Shown: positions 15,705 through 49,140 of the stretch, one piece after another
How positions within the stretch are numbered: the stretch's first letter is position 1
Layout of the letters: the number at the start of each line of letters is the position of its first letter
Source: Clostridia bacterium
GTDB lineage: Bacteria; Bacillota; Peptococcia; DRI-13; UBA5745
Direction: 5' to 3'
Assembly: GCA_018436095.1 (NCBI GenBank)
Contig: JAHDMJ010000013.1
Span: 1-64,000, forward strand
DNA: 64,000 nt
Notes under the pieces: generated by a model
The model's database searches: none
What the model saw: only the letters and a program-made list of their open reading frames with translations
Told to the model about the DNA's origin: nothing
Position numbers and translations under genes: made by a program

Positions 15705-16209
15705 GAATCCGTACTTCTAGTACTAGAAAGAATCCGGCAGACAAAGGGGTCTTCTCAAAAGCAACTCAAAAGCTGCCATAGCATGCTGGTTTCATAAGCC
15801 GGCGGCTATAGACAGGTTTGGGGCTTGATTTGAGCCGGCCTCTTTGTCATGGAAAAAGAAGTTCGGGTTGGCGGTTGTGTCCCTTGGCGGCGCTGCTGGA
15901 AAATGTGCAAAATTGCAGGTTTGTCACCCCGTTTGGCCCCCAAATGTGCAAAATTGCAGGTTTGTTGGGTCAGATCACTGCTCCTTGGCCTTTTAGGGGC
16001 CTAGAATGGGCTGAAAGCCGGATTTTTATAGATAAAAGCCTTTACAAACTTGCAATTTTGCACAATAATCGCTTCCGCTAAGGTACAAACTTGCATTTTT
16101 GAGTGTTGCCAACCGCAGGCAGGCGCAGGCCATAGTATCGCCGCCCTCCTCCGGTCACGCCCCTCGCCGCCCCCTCCGGCACTAAATCCATGGTCCAATG
16201 CCTTTTGCT
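15705..16209. other. Intergenic region between spoIVA and degV
   Basis: About 600 bases separate the spoIVA stop from the degV stop. The region holds a 14-bp perfect palindrome TTCTAGTACTAGAA at 15715-15728, the repeat module at 15905-16103 and the degV terminator. The short open frames across it are chance readings through repeats; no gene is supported. Confidence 0.7.
15905..16103. repeat. Two-by-two repeat module, 41-bp period
   Basis: Forward copies gtgcaaaattgcaggtttgt are at 15905-15924 and 15946-15965. Inverted copies are at 16044-16063 (acaaacttgcaattttgcac) and 16085-16103 (diverged end). Start-to-start distance is 41 in both halves. The 21-base sequences between copies are not complementary to each other, so it is the repeats alone that are symmetrically placed. 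It sits between the convergent spoIVA and degV genes. Confidence 0.85.
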
Positions 16210-29902: not shown

Positions 29903-29924
29903 GTTTTCAAAGTGAGCGAGTTTT

Positions 29925-30144
29925 GTGCAAAATTTCAACTTTGTACCCGGTCTCGGCCCTATTTGTGCAAAATTGCAGGTTTGTATTCCTCATTTATACA
30001 CTTTTTTGTTTGAAATTCCAGCTTTATGGTATAAACAAACTTTTGGGGTTATAATTTCAAAGTCGAGGCCTATTTTTGTGTTGACAAACCTGCAATTTTG
30101 CACAGTTAGCCTTGTTGAACAGCGGCAAACCTGCAATTTTGCAC
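29925..30144. repeat. Two-by-two repeat module, 40/41-bp period
   Basis: Forward copies are at 29925-29944 (diverged: gtgcaaaatttcaactttgt) and 29965-29984 (consensus). Inverted copies are at 30084-30103 and 30125-30144 (acaaacctgcaattttgcac and gcaaacctgcaattttgcac). Spacing is 40 in the left half and 41 in the right. The base pairs flanking the inner inverted copy (cacagttagcct) recur in the module at 39664. The whole 373-base gap between the LysR gene and the DUF177 gene is occupied by this module and a promoter. Confidence 0.85.
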
Positions 30145-30203
30145 ACTTCTACCTTAAGGTGCTATCTTGTGCCGCGATAATTCGGTAATTCCCGGCTCGG
30201 TCA

Positions 30204-39583: not shown

Positions 39584-39663
39584 TTGTGCGCCTATTTTAT
39601 GGGAGGGCGGGGAATTAGCGAGGATTTAGTGAGGAGTTAGCGAGGTCTTAACAGGAGCTGGCT

Positions 39664-39915
39664 GTGCAATTTTGCAGGTTTGTAGTGGTTTGATGCAGCT
39701 AACTGCTCAATTTTGCAGGTTTGTCATTCATCGATTCTCTTTTTGGAAGGCTTCTGGACTGCATCTAGGGGGAGAGATGAAGAAGAGCACTATTTAAGGA
39801 GAAAACCCCCTTATAAAGTATACATTTTTGAGTAAGAGGCGGTCAGCAGGGGTTACAAAGCTGCAATTTTGCACAGTTAGCCTCAGCTAATCGTTACAAA
39901 CCTACAAATTTGTGC
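39664..39915. repeat. Two-by-two repeat module, 41-bp period
   Basis: Forward copies are at 39664-39683 (gtgcaattttgcaggtttgt) and 39705-39724 (gctcaattttgcaggtttgt). Inverted copies are at 39855-39874 (acaaagctgcaattttgcac) and 39896-39915 (acaaacctacaaatttgtgc). Spacing is 41 in both halves; the gap between the halves is 130 bases, longer than in the modules at 15905 and 29925. Confidence 0.85.
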
Positions 39916-40049
39916 AAAACGAGGCTAGCAGTGGTTGGGACGACCGGGAAGCTGAAAACACCAAAAAAGCCTGTTACCAACTCCAAATTTGCGAAAAATA
40001 GGGGAGCTTTTCGAGGACACTGAAAAAGTCGGCGGCAAATCGGGCGAGG

Positions 40050-40272
40050 TGCACAAAAATCGAAGTTGTGTCACAGCGGACATCAAATTTAGGCTAAAAG
40101 CAGAGGCTAACTGCACAAAAATCGAAGTTGTGTCGCACTAGTTCCTTCAAATTGGCTTAGATTACGAAAAACTGCCCTCTAATCCGTTACACAACCTCGA
40201 TTTTTGTGCATCTGAAAGCGAAAAAACAGTAAAATCCCCTGCCTGCCGTCACACAACCTCGATTTTTGTGCA
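40050..40272. repeat. Diverged two-by-two repeat module, 62-bp period
   Basis: Forward copies tgcacaaaaatcgaagttgtgtc (quoted as one 23-base unit split here: tgcacaaaaatc then gaagttgtgtc) lie at 40050-40072 and 40112-40134. Inverted copies, differing by one or two bases, lie at 40188-40210 and 40250-40272. Spacing is 62 in both halves. The unit keeps the skeleton TGCA-AAAAT-G-AGGTT-GT of the other modules, so it looks like a subfamily. Confidence 0.85.
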
Positions 40273-40507
40273 GTTGGCAACAGTGAACCCGATTTTAGCC
40301 ACTATACGGACTGCGGCTTTTTCAGCGGCCTCAAGCTTTTCCGCAATTGGCAGCAGTTGCAATTCGTACACATAAATAAATGATGTGTCTAGCACCGAAC
40401 AGCTTTTGCGCATCATCGCGGATATGCTGCCATTGCCGTTGCGCTGCTGCTGCTACCAGAAAAAAACTGGCTGTACAGTAAAAATACTTGATGCCAAGGA
40501 AAAATCC

Positions 40508-40959: not shown

Positions 40960-41109
40960 GTATGAACTTTAGGCAAAATTTCATGGTTAAAGTGGGCTGT
41001 TTCTTCAAAATAGTGAAGAGCACCTAGCAAAAACACTAAATACGGCTAAGGGCAGTTGAATACAGCCGAAAGATAATGTTTGGGACACTTTAAACTTGAA
41101 ATTTTGGTA

Positions 41110-41168
41110 CAGGTTGAAGAGATATCCTTAAATACGTAGCACGCAGAGGGAGCTACGATCTCAACCTG
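41110..41168 (+). promoter_or_regulatory. Structured leader upstream of ffh
   Basis: Nested stems CAGGTTGA (41110-41117) with TCAACCTG (41161-41168), and CGTAGC (41135-41140) with GCTACG (41152-41157). The structure lies 49 bases before the ffh start in the 257-base gap after ylxM. It does not match a riboswitch or leader that I recognise; no promoter was identified in the gap. It could be an attenuator or RNA-stability element. Confidence 0.4.
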
Positions 41169-45625: not shown

Positions 45626-45661
45626 ATCAATTATGCTGCTTTCTTTTCAGGAAAAAAATGG

Positions 45662-45725
45662 TATAATGTAGCTATAGGAACTGTTGCTTGGCGGCTTTCC
45701 CTCCTATTATCGAATAATAGGAGGG
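45662..45725 (+). promoter_or_regulatory. Toxin promoter and self-sequestering leader
   Basis: The -10 box TATAAT is at 45662-45667 (weak -35). The leader begins near 45674 with ATAGGAACTGTTGCTT, which pairs with AAGCAGCAGTTCCTAT at 45881-45896 (one G-U). A perfect 12-bp hairpin (45699-45710 with 45714-45725) buries the Shine-Dalgarno GGAGGG against CCCTCC. The mRNA would therefore be translationally silent until refolded or processed. Confidence 0.75.
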
Positions 45726-45737
45726 GGGTGATATGGT

Positions 45738-45827
45738 ATGGCAGTAACATGGCTGGAGTTGTTTAACTTCTGCCTGATTCTCCTAACATTAGCCTCGTTG
45801 TTGTTGAAAAAGAACAAGAAAAAATAG
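45738..45827 (+). CDS. Small hydrophobic peptide, probable type I toxin
   Basis: A 29-residue peptide: MAVTWLELFN then FCLILLTLAS then LLLKKNKKK. One membrane helix is followed by a basic tail, the form of holin-like or Fst/TxpA type toxins that depolarise the membrane when overproduced. The start ATG 45738 lies after GGAGGGGGG, which is held in the leader hairpin. The convergent antisense RNA, 5'-3' pairing and hidden ribosome site are hallmarks of type I systems. No close family member can be named from memory; a resemblance to the Hol_Tox family is possible. Confidence 0.75.
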   Translation: MAVTWLELFNFCLILLTLASLLLKKNKKK

Positions 45828-45900
45828 CCGCCTGCAAGCAAGCGGCCGATCTCAATAACTGAGGGACTACCGCCGGACAAAAGCAGCAGTTCCTATTTGT
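45816..45900 (-). ncRNA. Antisense RNA, probable type I antitoxin
   Basis: On the minus strand a promoter TTGAAG (45930-45935), 17 bases, TAGGAT (45907-45912) should start RNA near 45900. Eighty bases later the stem GCCGCTTGC/GCAGGCGGC (45827-45846) is followed by TATTTTTTC, an intrinsic terminator. The RNA is complementary to the 3' part of the toxin transcript and to the 3' arm of its 5'-3' pairing. The second copy keeps the promoter, and its terminator stem is kept with a G-U changed to C-G. Confidence 0.75.
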
Positions 45901-46036
45901 ATTTATATCCTATCATAGTTTGCTTTATTCTTCAATGGAGAATTTATTCAACGGGCTGCACTTTGGCCAGTGTGGCCAGGCGCCCCAAAAGGTAGATTAA
46001 TAGTATAATGCTTACTATAGCGAGGTGATGTTAAAA

Positions 46037-46540
46037 ATGCCATATCTAGTTAGGGCGATACAGTATAGTGACTGGGACAGTATAAGCAAAATATATTTGC
46101 AAGGAATAAATACAAACCTGGCAACATTTCAAACAGAATGTCCCCAGTATAGCGATTGGGAAGCAGCTCATCATAAACACAGCAGATTAGTGATCGTGAT
46201 GGATGATAATATAATTGGCTGGGCAGCTCTGGCGCCGGTTTCGGGGCGGTGCGTGTACTCAGGTGTAGCTGAGGTTAGTATTTATGTTGATGAAGCTCAA
46301 AGAGGCAAGGGTATTGCCACAATACTAATGAAAGCTCTCATAGACAGCGCTGAAAAAAACGGTATTTGGACACTACAGTCAGCAATTCTGCAGGATAATG
46401 AAGCCAGTATCCGATTGCATGAAAAATGCGGATTTCGCATGGTAGGATATCGGGAAAAGATAGGACTGGACCGTTATGGCAACTGGCGAAATATTGTATT
46501 AATGGAATATAGAAGTAAGACAGTCCCGGCGGGTTATTGA
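46037..46540 (+). CDS. GNAT acetyltransferase, phosphinothricin-acetyltransferase-like
   Basis: A 167-residue GNAT protein: start VRAIQYSDWDSISKIYLQGI, acetyl-CoA loop VDEAQRGKGIATILMKALID, and IRLHEKCGFRMVGYREKIG. It resembles the PAT/YncA group that acetylates amino-acid analogues. ATG 46037 follows GAGGTG at nine bases. Base use is more AT-rich than in its neighbours. The last residues (SKTVPAGY) are read from the duplicated RimL-type sequence that begins at 46520, so the original C-terminus was replaced at the duplication junction. The gene and a promoter-like TATAAT near 46004 lie between the two duplicate copies, which marks it as a later insertion. Confidence 0.82.
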   Translation: MPYLVRAIQYSDWDSISKIYLQGINTNLATFQTECPQYSDWEAAHHKHSRLVIVMDDNIIGWAALAPVSGRCVYSGVAEVSIYVDEAQRGKGIATILMKALIDSAEKNGIWTLQSAILQDNEASIRLHEKCGFRMVGYREKIGLDRYGNWRNIVLMEYRSKTVPAGY

Positions 46541-46661
46541 AAAATGCGGCTTTGTTTATGAAGGAACTCTGCGGCAAGCCAAAGGGATTTACGATGGCCG
46601 GGTCCATGATGTGGTTTGCTATTCCATGACCAGAGAAGAATATAGAAATTATTGTAAGTAA
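46520..46661 (+). pseudogene. Fragment of the RimL-type acetyltransferase gene
   Basis: The last 47 codons and stop of the gene at 45086-45625 are repeated here with three or so base differences, without a start. It follows directly on the PAT-like frame in a different reading frame. It is a duplication remnant and not a functional gene. Confidence 0.85.
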
Positions 46662-46698
46662 ATTAATGATAATGCTTTCTTTTCAGGAAAAAAATGGC

Positions 46699-46788
46699 AT
46701 GGCAGTAACATGGCTGGAGTTGTTTAACTTCTGTCTGATTCTCCTAACATTAGCCTTGTTGTTGTTGAAAAACAACAAGAAAAAATAG
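46699..46788 (+). CDS. Second copy of the hydrophobic peptide, promoterless
   Basis: A 29-residue peptide differing at two sites (Ser20 to Leu, Lys25 to Asn) from the product at 45738. The frame is intact, but promoter, leader and ribosome site are deleted; only AGGAAAAAAATGGC precedes the ATG. It is probably not translated. The antisense promoter (46892-46897 and 46869-46874, 17 apart) and terminator (46788-46807) survive, so this copy may still make an antitoxin RNA. Confidence 0.6.
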   Translation: MAVTWLELFNFCLILLTLALLLLKNNKKK

Positions 46789-46862
46789 CCGCCTGCTAGC
46801 AGGCGGCCAACCCCAGTAATTGAGGGACTGCCGCCCCAACAAAAGCAGCAGTTCCTATTTGT
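46779..46862 (-). ncRNA. Antisense RNA of the second copy
   Basis: The promoter TTGAAG-17-TAGGAT is identical to copy 1. The terminator stem GCCGCCTGC/GCAGGCGGC is a perfect palindrome followed by TATTTTTTC. Because the sense gene has lost its promoter, this RNA could act in trans on the copy 1 toxin mRNA. Confidence 0.6.
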
Positions 46863-46905
46863 ATTTATATCCTATCACAGTTTGCTTTATTCTTCAATGG
46901 AGAAT

Positions 46906-48090
46906 TTATTCAACCGGCTGAACTCTGGCCACGCCGCTTTTGATAGCGGCCCGGGCTACGGCGCCGGCCACCGCATCCTTGACCCGGGGATCAAAGGCGG
47001 CAGGCATGATGTAATCAGCGCTGAGCTCTGCGTCGGATACCAGGCTCGCTATTGCCTCAGCGGCGGCGATTTTCATCTCATCATTGATATCGCTGGCCCG
47101 TACGTCCAAGGCGCCCCGGAAGATGCCGGGAAAGGCCAATACGTTGTTGATCTGATTGGGAAAATCGCTGCGGCCTGTGCCTACTACGGCGGCGCCGGCT
47201 TCCTTGGCTTCCTCGGGAAAAATCTCCGGAGTCGGATTAGCCATAGGAAAGAGAATGGCGTCTTTGGCCATGGTTTTAACCATATCCTTAGTGATGGTGC
47301 CGGGGCCGGAAACACCGATAAATACGTCGGCTCCTGCCAGGACTTCGGCGATGCTGCCTTTTTTCATCAACTTATTGGAGATGGCGGCCATTTCCTGCTT
47401 CTCCGCATTCAGCCCTTCCCGGCCGGCATAGATGGCCCCGGCCCGGTCGCACATCACTACGTCTTTCAGGCCCACAGCCATCAGCAGCTTAATGATGGCT
47501 ACACCGGCGGCCCCGGCGCCGCTGGTGACTACGCTGATATCCCGGATATCTTTGCCTACCACCTTCAGGGCATTGATCAGGGCAGCCAGGGTTACTACGG
47601 CGGTGCCGTGCTGGTCGTCGTGGAAGATGGGAATATCGCAGCGCTCTTTAAGCTTGCGCTCAATTTCAAAGCAGCGGGGAGCGGAGATATCCTCCAAATT
47701 AATGCCGCCGAAGCTGCCGGCCAAAAGAGCTACCGTATTGACAATGTCGTCCACATCCTTGGAACGGATGCAGAGAGGAATGGCGTTGACGCCGCCAAAC
47801 TCCTTAAAGAGGACGCATTTGCCTTCCATCACCGGCATGCCGGCTTCGGGGCCGATATCCCCCAGGCCCAGGACGGCAGTGCCGTCGGTGACTACGGCTA
47901 CCATATTGCCCCGGCCGGTCAGCTCGTAGCTTAAGTCTACATTTTTTTGAATCTCCAGGCAAGGCTGGGCTACTCCCGGGGTATAGGCGATGCTGAGCTG
48001 CTCTTTATTTGTTACTTTAGCCTTGGACACAATCTCCAGCTTGCCTTTCCATTGGGCATGCATTTTCAGGGCTTCCGCCGCGTAATCCAT
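46906..48090 (-). CDS. NAD(P)-dependent malic enzyme
   Basis: A 394-residue decarboxylating malate dehydrogenase of the short bacterial type. It has the catalytic Tyr region SIAYTPGVAQPC, the VVTDGTAVLGLGDIGPEAGMPVMEGK segment (given in part), the metal site IPIFHDDQHGTAVV, the Rossmann loop TSGAGAAGVAIIKLL and FPMANPTPEIFPEEA. It makes pyruvate, CO2 and NAD(P)H from malate. AGGAGG precedes the ATG. The LysR gene is divergent from it across 113 bases, a typical regulator-target pair. Its 3' end borders the duplication. Confidence 0.94.
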   Translation of the reverse strand: MDYAAEALKMHAQWKGKLEIVSKAKVTNKEQLSIAYTPGVAQPCLEIQKNVDLSYELTGRGNMVAVVTDGTAVLGLGDIGPEAGMPVMEGKCVLFKEFGGVNAIPLCIRSKDVDDIVNTVALLAGSFGGINLEDISAPRCFEIERKLKERCDIPIFHDDQHGTAVVTLAALINALKVVGKDIRDISVVTSGAGAAGVAIIKLLMAVGLKDVVMCDRAGAIYAGREGLNAEKQEMAAISNKLMKKGSIAEVLAGADVFIGVSGPGTITKDMVKTMAKDAILFPMANPTPEIFPEEAKEAGAAVVGTGRSDFPNQINNVLAFPGIFRGALDVRASDINDEMKIAAAEAIASLVSDAELSADYIMPAAFDPRVKDAVAGAVARAAIKSGVARVQPVE

Positions 48091-48171
48091 GATCGATACC
48101 TCCTATAAATCTATTGCTTCCATCATAATTCTGAAAATCTGATCTGTAAAATACATATTTTTTCTAATATA

Positions 48172-48186
48172 ATAGATTTTATCTAT
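48172..48186. promoter_or_regulatory. Probable LysR binding site
   Basis: The dyad ATAGAT-TTT-ATCTAT lies between the divergent malic enzyme and LysR genes, 17 bases before the LysR ATG. It has the T-N11-A form of LysR boxes. Confidence 0.5.
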
Positions 48187-48203
48187 GATGGAAGGAGAAG
48201 CAG

Positions 48204-49085
48204 ATGAAGATATCGCAAATCCGGCATTTTCAGGCGGTATGCCGGTATAAAAACGTGACCCGGGCTGCCGAGAGCCTGCATATTACCCAGCCCTCCGTAT
48301 CCAGTTCAATCAAGGAGCTGGAGGAGGAGTTTGGCGTCAATCTCTTTCACCGGATCAATAAACGGCTGGTGCTGACCCGGGAAGGAGAATTCTTTTTGGA
48401 GCGGTCCAATCTTCTTTTGGAGCAGGTGGATACTTTGGAAGCTCAGATGAAGGACCTGGGCAGCGGCAAAAACTTGATCCGCATCGGCGTACCCCCCATG
48501 ATCGGCACCTTTCTTTTTCCCGCTATGTTCGACGCTTTCCACGAGAAATATCCGGAAATCAAGTTGGAAATGGTGGAACAGGGTTCCCGGATCACCAATA
48601 AATTGGTGAAAAGCGAGGAGCTGGACTTAGCTATGGCCATTGTGGATGAGGCCGTAGATCATGAGCTCCACAAGCTGGATATTTTCAGCACCCGCCTGGT
48701 ATTTTGCGTCAGGGCCGGCCACCCCCTGGCCTGCCGGGACAGTGTGGGCCTCCAGGACTTGCGGCAGGAGCCCATTATTTTATTTAAGAGTGATTCCTCT
48801 CAAAACGCTATTTTGCTGAGCCGTTTTAAAAGCCTGGATATTGAGCCCAATGTGTTGCTTTCCTCCAGTCAGCTCTATACGATCAAACATTTTGTGGCGG
48901 CAGGACGGGCGGGAGCCTTCTTATTTCAGGAGATTGCCGATATGGAGCCGGATATCGCAGGGGTGCCTTTAGAAGAACCTATTCTTATGGATATCTGCCT
49001 GATTTGGAAAAAGAACCGCCACATTTATAGTGATGCCGCTAAGTTTATTGAGTTTACGAAGTCATATAACGAAGGGGCTAAATGA
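48204..49085 (+). CDS. LysR-family transcriptional regulator
   Basis: A 293-residue LysR protein; HTH VTRAAESLHITQPSVSSSIKELEEEFGVNLF (in part) at about 18-48 and an effector domain from residue 90. GGAAGGAGAAG precedes the ATG. Divergent from the malic-enzyme gene, it probably controls it in response to a dicarboxylate. Confidence 0.92.
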   Translation: MKISQIRHFQAVCRYKNVTRAAESLHITQPSVSSSIKELEEEFGVNLFHRINKRLVLTREGEFFLERSNLLLEQVDTLEAQMKDLGSGKNLIRIGVPPMIGTFLFPAMFDAFHEKYPEIKLEMVEQGSRITNKLVKSEELDLAMAIVDEAVDHELHKLDIFSTRLVFCVRAGHPLACRDSVGLQDLRQEPIILFKSDSSQNAILLSRFKSLDIEPNVLLSSSQLYTIKHFVAAGRAGAFLFQEIADMEPDIAGVPLEEPILMDICLIWKKNRHIYSDAAKFIEFTKSYNEGAK

Positions 49086-49089
49086 AAAC

Positions 49090-49119
49090 AAGGCCCCCCG
49101 GCCTATGCCGGAGAGCCTT
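49090..49119 (-). terminator. Terminator between lysR and the lipoprotein gene
   Basis: AAGGC..CCGGC / GCCGG..GCCTT stem-loop. On the minus strand GTTTTCATTT follows, so it best serves the lipoprotein gene; it may work for both convergent genes. Confidence 0.6.
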
Positions 49120-49140
49120 GGAAGAGGCTTGGTTGCCTGG

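Follow-up and report, generated by a model that had tools for sequence, protein, structure and literature searches.

The DNA at positions 40013-40332 of the window (the whole stretch of 64,000 nucleotides analysed here) is, on the evidence of its ends and flanking duplication, a non-autonomous mobile element, an IS1182-type MITE not described before, and the array of four F2 repeat units inside it is its cargo. F2 is one family of a superfamily of units whose arrays are dispersed through the genome, and helical phase appears to matter for these arrays. Within the element, two F2 units are forward and two inverted, with steps of 62, 77 and 62 bp (Table 1). The F2 consensus is TGCACAAAAATCGA(A/G)GTTGTGT with a unit length of 22-23 bases, and a single base separates the two orientations, the inverted units having GAGG where the forward ones have GAAG. 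A search of the host genome (G000; 3.7 Mb in 38 contigs) allowing up to three mismatches returned 69 forward and 77 reverse F2 matches, 146 altogether, against no forward match and one reverse match for the reversed pattern, so the repeats are not due to chance. A sequence-only reading had described a 23-base unit, twice forward and twice inverted with 62-base steps in each half, at 40050-40272. We reproduced its positions and steps, but the span is too narrow, since the repeated element has its own inverted ends and a target duplication of 9 bp; that reading also missed the place of the module as IS1182-type MITE cargo.

Table 1 Features of the F2-bearing element and of other modules in the window.
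Feature	Position	Strand	Details
Left target-site duplication	40004-40012		GAGCTTTTC; 8/9 identical to right copy
Left terminal inverted repeat, 18 bp	40013-40030	+	GAGGACACTGAAAAAGTC; matches IS1182 element ends in G012
F2 unit 1	40050-40071	+	TGCACAAAAATCGAAGTTGTGT
F2 unit 2	40112-40133	+	Starts 62 bp downstream of unit 1
Centre between facing units 2 and 3	40134-40188		55 bp
F2 unit 3 (inverted)	40189-40210	-	
F2 unit 4 (inverted)	40251-40272	-	62 bp past unit 3
Right terminal inverted repeat, 18 bp	40315-40332	-	GGCTTTTTCAGCGGCCTC; 3 mismatches to consensus
Right target-site duplication	40333-40341		AAGCTTTTC
Neighbouring F1 module	39663-39916		Units at 39663 (+), 39704 (+), 39855 (-), 39896 (-); steps 41, 151, 41
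F1 module	15904-16105		Steps 41, 99, 41
F1 module	29924-30145		Steps 40, 120, 41
F4 module	40970-41110		One forward and one inverted unit; between ylxM and ffh

A BLAST search with the DNA around the units delimits a non-coding repeating element of ~320 bp, present in the host genome in ~20 complete and several partial copies that are ~90% identical. Because several contigs of the draft (C6:1, C19:1, C37:1 and the end of C35) break off within such elements or at their margins, these counts are minimum values, and an autonomous copy may have escaped assembly. At their two ends the copies carry GAGGGCACTGAAAAAGTC and the reverse complement of that sequence, and on either side lie 9-bp direct duplications such as GGTTTAAAG, TGCACTATC, GACTTTTCG and GGCTGGGTC, which are perfect at L032, L036, L038, L039, L073, L074, L076 and L078. 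The orthologous site in the congener SM1-B15.1 is empty. Shorter MITEs, 179-244 bp long, share the ends of this element but hold different cargo. At C30:112-117 kb, single MITE ends flank 4 kb of ordinary genes, and no transposase was found in those 4 kb.

Among 46 genomes of the class, the MITE ends are present in the congener (G004) and in G038, G010, G012 and G020. G012, from the same order, carries an autonomous 1,730-bp IS1182-family element (L189, 723-2452) with matching ends, GGGGCCACTGAAAAAGTG and AACTTTTTCAGTGGCCTC, whose transposase scores 325 bits with the NCBIfam IS1182 model NF033551 (cut-off 270) and which is flanked by a duplication, GGATGAACC, of the same 9-bp length as those of the MITEs. 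These inverted ends (GAGGNCACTGAAAAAGTC) and the 9-bp duplication, common to both, identify 40013-40332 as an IS1182-type MITE. MITEs usually have an autonomous partner within their genome but do not require one, so the assignment rests on ends and duplication; no IS1182 transposase was found in the drafts of the host or the congener, where it may be lost or unassembled. ISLre2 was also considered as the source of the ends, and its model PF06782 gave no match; the control genomes gave none either, hence this result is uninformative. G038, from another family of the class, holds many MITEs with IS1182-type ends and unrelated cargo (TCATTCTGAATGAAACGAAG.. / CTTCGCTATCGCTCAGGATGAC; L164, L168, L171, L174, L180, L183 and L186). 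Known IS1182-family MITEs, such as the ISMac2-related MITEs of Methanosarcina acetivorans (PMC3852290), are likewise short non-coding copies; the cargo in the window differs in that it consists of conserved sites in a phased array, which is also found outside the MITE frame.

The units fall into four families, F1-F4, that have a common core, TGNNCAAAATTGCARGTT, and differing tails and together number more than 500. F1 has the tail TGT and steps of 40-41 bp, F2 the tail GTGT and steps of 61-62 bp, F3 is TGTACAAAATTTGAGGTTTT, and the F4 tail is TAAAGTGT. The proposal that the F2 unit is related to that of an adjoining standard module therefore stands: this F1 module exists, with 41-bp steps, and its family is dispersed, with 328 units genome-wide at up to three mismatches. 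Facing order is nearly exclusive: F1 neighbours on opposite strands and no more than 400 bp apart face each other in 45 of 46 pairs. At free F1 arrays, flanking conservation ends at the outermost unit, and no target duplication was found at the outermost units of free F1 or F4 arrays. The F2 core, too, is present with other flanks. A second F2-core lineage without IS1182 ends has a different common left flank, GGATTGGATTGGGTTGTGCCCGGCC (L044, L047, L048, L049, L050 and L053), and L048, L049 and L053 seem by eye to lie directly beside tRNA genes. MITEs at L027, L031, L032, L033, L036 and L029 are often inserted in the tails of F1 or F4 units, as if these were a preferred target (flanks or duplications GGTTTGT.., AGTTTGTCG and GGTTTAAAG). 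Directly upstream of the neighbouring F1 module, three 18-nt near-repeats (GGAATTAGCGAGGATTTA) lie at 11-bp steps in 39611-39650.

F1 and F2 units are essentially limited to the host species. Six near-matches occur in the congener, whose assembly matches the MAG Clostridia bacterium SM1-B15.1 at 100% identity over 4,338 bp; searches of other relatives gave none. The exact F2 unit was absent from a collection of named genomes, and phages, plasmids and viral contigs yielded nothing except one chance match. The 281-bp stretch holding the F1 module at 29924-30145 is reduced to 13 bp in SM1-B15.1, and the F4 module is absent from its ylxM-ffh gap. Other differences from the congener lie outside the modules: window positions 45660-45930, absent there, encode a ~30-residue hydrophobic peptide, MAVTWLELFNFCLILLTLASLLLKKNKKK, that by eye resembles holin-like type I toxins, and the congener contig has 458 bp in place of the malic enzyme and LysR regulator genes at 46526-49137.

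Genome-wide, same-strand F2 steps within 400 bp measure 61-62 bp in 59 of 61 cases and 41 bp in none, in agreement with the 62-base steps of the sequence-only reading. This count proves little alone because the F2 copies derive from one ancestor, and the 62-bp regularity is partly to largely inherited. For the same reason, namely the single ancestor of the 27 complete arrays, the change from 41 to 62 bp from which the sequence-only reading had argued for helical phase is not evidence by itself. The broader claim that phase on the helix matters is supported on other grounds: centres of unrelated sequence are quantised in length, related centres change by jumps of 10-11 bp, and the congener keeps the spacing despite a diverged spacer.

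Facing-unit distances across all families fall into classes near 61, 82, 93, 103, 113, 123, 134 and 155 bp and concentrate at multiples of ~10.2-10.3 bp. When each centre-homology cluster contributes a single value and the null is a uniform length distribution, the Rayleigh statistic is highest at 10.2 bp (n = 21, p < 5e-5), although remote homology may persist between clusters, which were built on 7-mers in common. An unbiased sample of four contigs (C4, C34, C17 and C22), which at 1.23 Mb covers one third of the 3.7-Mb genome, holds 260 units against 4 for the reversed control. Counting each combination of homology cluster and length class in this sample once gives the same period (n = 19, T = 10.2, p = 1.5e-4), which beats every other period from 5 to 25 bp. 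Divergent, back-to-back neighbour distances, which serve as an internal control, show no periodicity (p = 0.37), and neither do the outer lengths of the MITEs (p = 0.42). The mean same-strand steps, 40.7 and 61.6 bp, correspond to four and six turns of ~10.2 bp.

The spacing might lack any function, the 62-bp step being merely inherited by MITE copies and the quantised centres arising from descent and short tandem repeats. The ~90% identity of the F2 copies agrees with this, and some F4 centres hold ~10-bp repeats, which could contribute to the quantisation of F4 centres. We nevertheless regard this explanation as quite unlikely. Phasing holds when each homology cluster counts only once, and it holds in the unbiased sample. 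F1 centres have no simple repeats of such kind; the length differences between aligned ones are either 1 bp or 10-11 bp, with compensating indels in one case. Conservation also exceeds what descent alone would leave: in the 27 complete F2 arrays, consensus agreement is 0.959 in unit columns and 0.864 in spacers and centre (p = 6e-18), and the sole sizeable length changes are losses of 10-11 bp in the centre. A centre 10-11 bp shorter than the 55 bp of the window copy is seen in two other F2 copies and in the congener element L087. This last element shares the MITE ends and has steps of 62 and 62-63 bp, although one spacer is at chance identity to that of the window copy (12/40); its centre is 11 bp shorter, and its units still match at 16-19 of 22 positions.

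Phasing of this kind points to proteins bound to double-stranded DNA and interacting across the centre, not to an RNA or a single-strand hairpin. That the arrays act as RNA, as transcribed long hairpins, a structured RNA or a terminator, is highly improbable: the predicted fold is very stable, but this is a trivial result of the inverted order, there is no Rfam match, nested units show no preferential complementarity, and the frequent A/G change in F2 gives an A-C mismatch in the stem. An RNA hairpin function was rejected on the partner comparison, in which nested units are no more alike than others. The same comparison bears on a REPIN-like origin, in which facing pairs would spread via single-strand hairpins through a RAYT-type (HUH, Y1) transposase. 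Like REPINs and BIMEs with their RAYTs (PMC3116915), the arrays comprise hundreds of intergenic, species-specific facing pairs in several families, and their ends lack duplications, an absence that RAYT-type transposition would explain; the region is also predicted to fold as a strong hairpin (z -7.3). This origin is still unlikely, in that the hairpin partners 1-4 and 2-3 are no more alike than other unit pairs, leaving no sign of selection for hairpin pairing, and a hairpin offers no cause for 10.2-bp quantisation of centres. A motif scan of the loci examined and of 1.23 Mb of the 3.7 Mb found no HUH (Y1, RAYT-type) ORF. In further contrast to REPINs and BIMEs, the arrays here have multi-unit ends with four- or six-turn steps and centres of whole-turn length.

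A protein acting on duplex DNA could instead serve the host, with a nucleoid-type or repressor-like protein on phased units forming small loops with a local effect on chromosome structure or transcription. Repression loops equally predict helical phasing, according to the helical-twist literature as cited in PMC3464196, and most arrays (43 of 52) lie between genes. By crude gene calls, however, divergent gene pairs, whose gaps hold the promoters, have too few arrays (12% vs 22% of gaps) and convergent pairs too many (29% vs 15%), which disfavours promoter control. Moreover, the window and the compared congener contig have no module position in common, and the centres are homologous copies, so the arrays have spread by copying. 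A host role of this type is accordingly somewhat unlikely.

The explanation to which we give about an even chance is that the IS1182-type MITE carries phased duplex sites for one protein that would form a same-face complex, most likely for synapsis of element ends. The four F2 units would be double-stranded recognition sites of this protein, two per side and facing. Steps of 62 bp (six turns) and, in the sister family, 41 bp (four turns), with whole-turn centres, would place all sites on one face of the helix, and the bound protein could then assemble into a single compact complex, looping the short DNA between the halves. The likeliest use would be by a transposase or related recombinase that synapses the element ends; such a use would account for the multiplication of in-phase length variants alone. 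Phasing, dispersal, homologous centres and the lack of positions common with the congener favour synapsis of short non-autonomous elements. Two points count against it: free F1 and F4 arrays lack target duplications, unlike a normal DDE element, and no enzyme linked to the units was identified. A search of 1.23 Mb, one third of the genome, for larger elements or genes bracketed by units found none. Only one rve-domain transposase turned up; it is IS3-like, lies at a distance from the units and was rejected as a partner.

Tn7- and Mu-type ends have several spaced binding sites per end and TG...CA outer bases, and in both respects they resemble the arrays; they differ in that here no 5-bp duplication and no Tn7-like transposase was found. 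Periodicity in end-to-end distance has a closer counterpart in the IESs of Paramecium, whose ~10.2-bp size periodicity is attributed to a transpososome-like loop (PMC3464196, PMC3408717), and in engineered short IS50 and IS1 constructs, whose transposon length is helix-dependent as cited in PMC3464196. Facing-unit distances here are likewise periodic at ~10.2-10.3 bp. Those systems use known transposases, whereas the present sites are bacterial, lie in repeated arrays and imply a protein that we infer from their arrangement. No natural bacterial example of such length-phasing evidence was found in the literature searched.

The phased site arrays represent a form of short repeated mobile DNA not described before. 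They may even constitute a class of mobile repeat new to bacteria, a tentative proposal against which we lean, comprising free arrays with 1-4 sites per side and no target duplication that would be spread in helical register by an undescribed enzyme and would also travel as cargo of IS1182-type MITEs. The genome amounts to a natural helical-twist experiment, in which one site array exists in dozens of lengths, almost all of them whole turns. A physical requirement of a predicted protein complex thereby becomes readable from sequence alone, and the length variants provide a ready substrate set for finding the protein.
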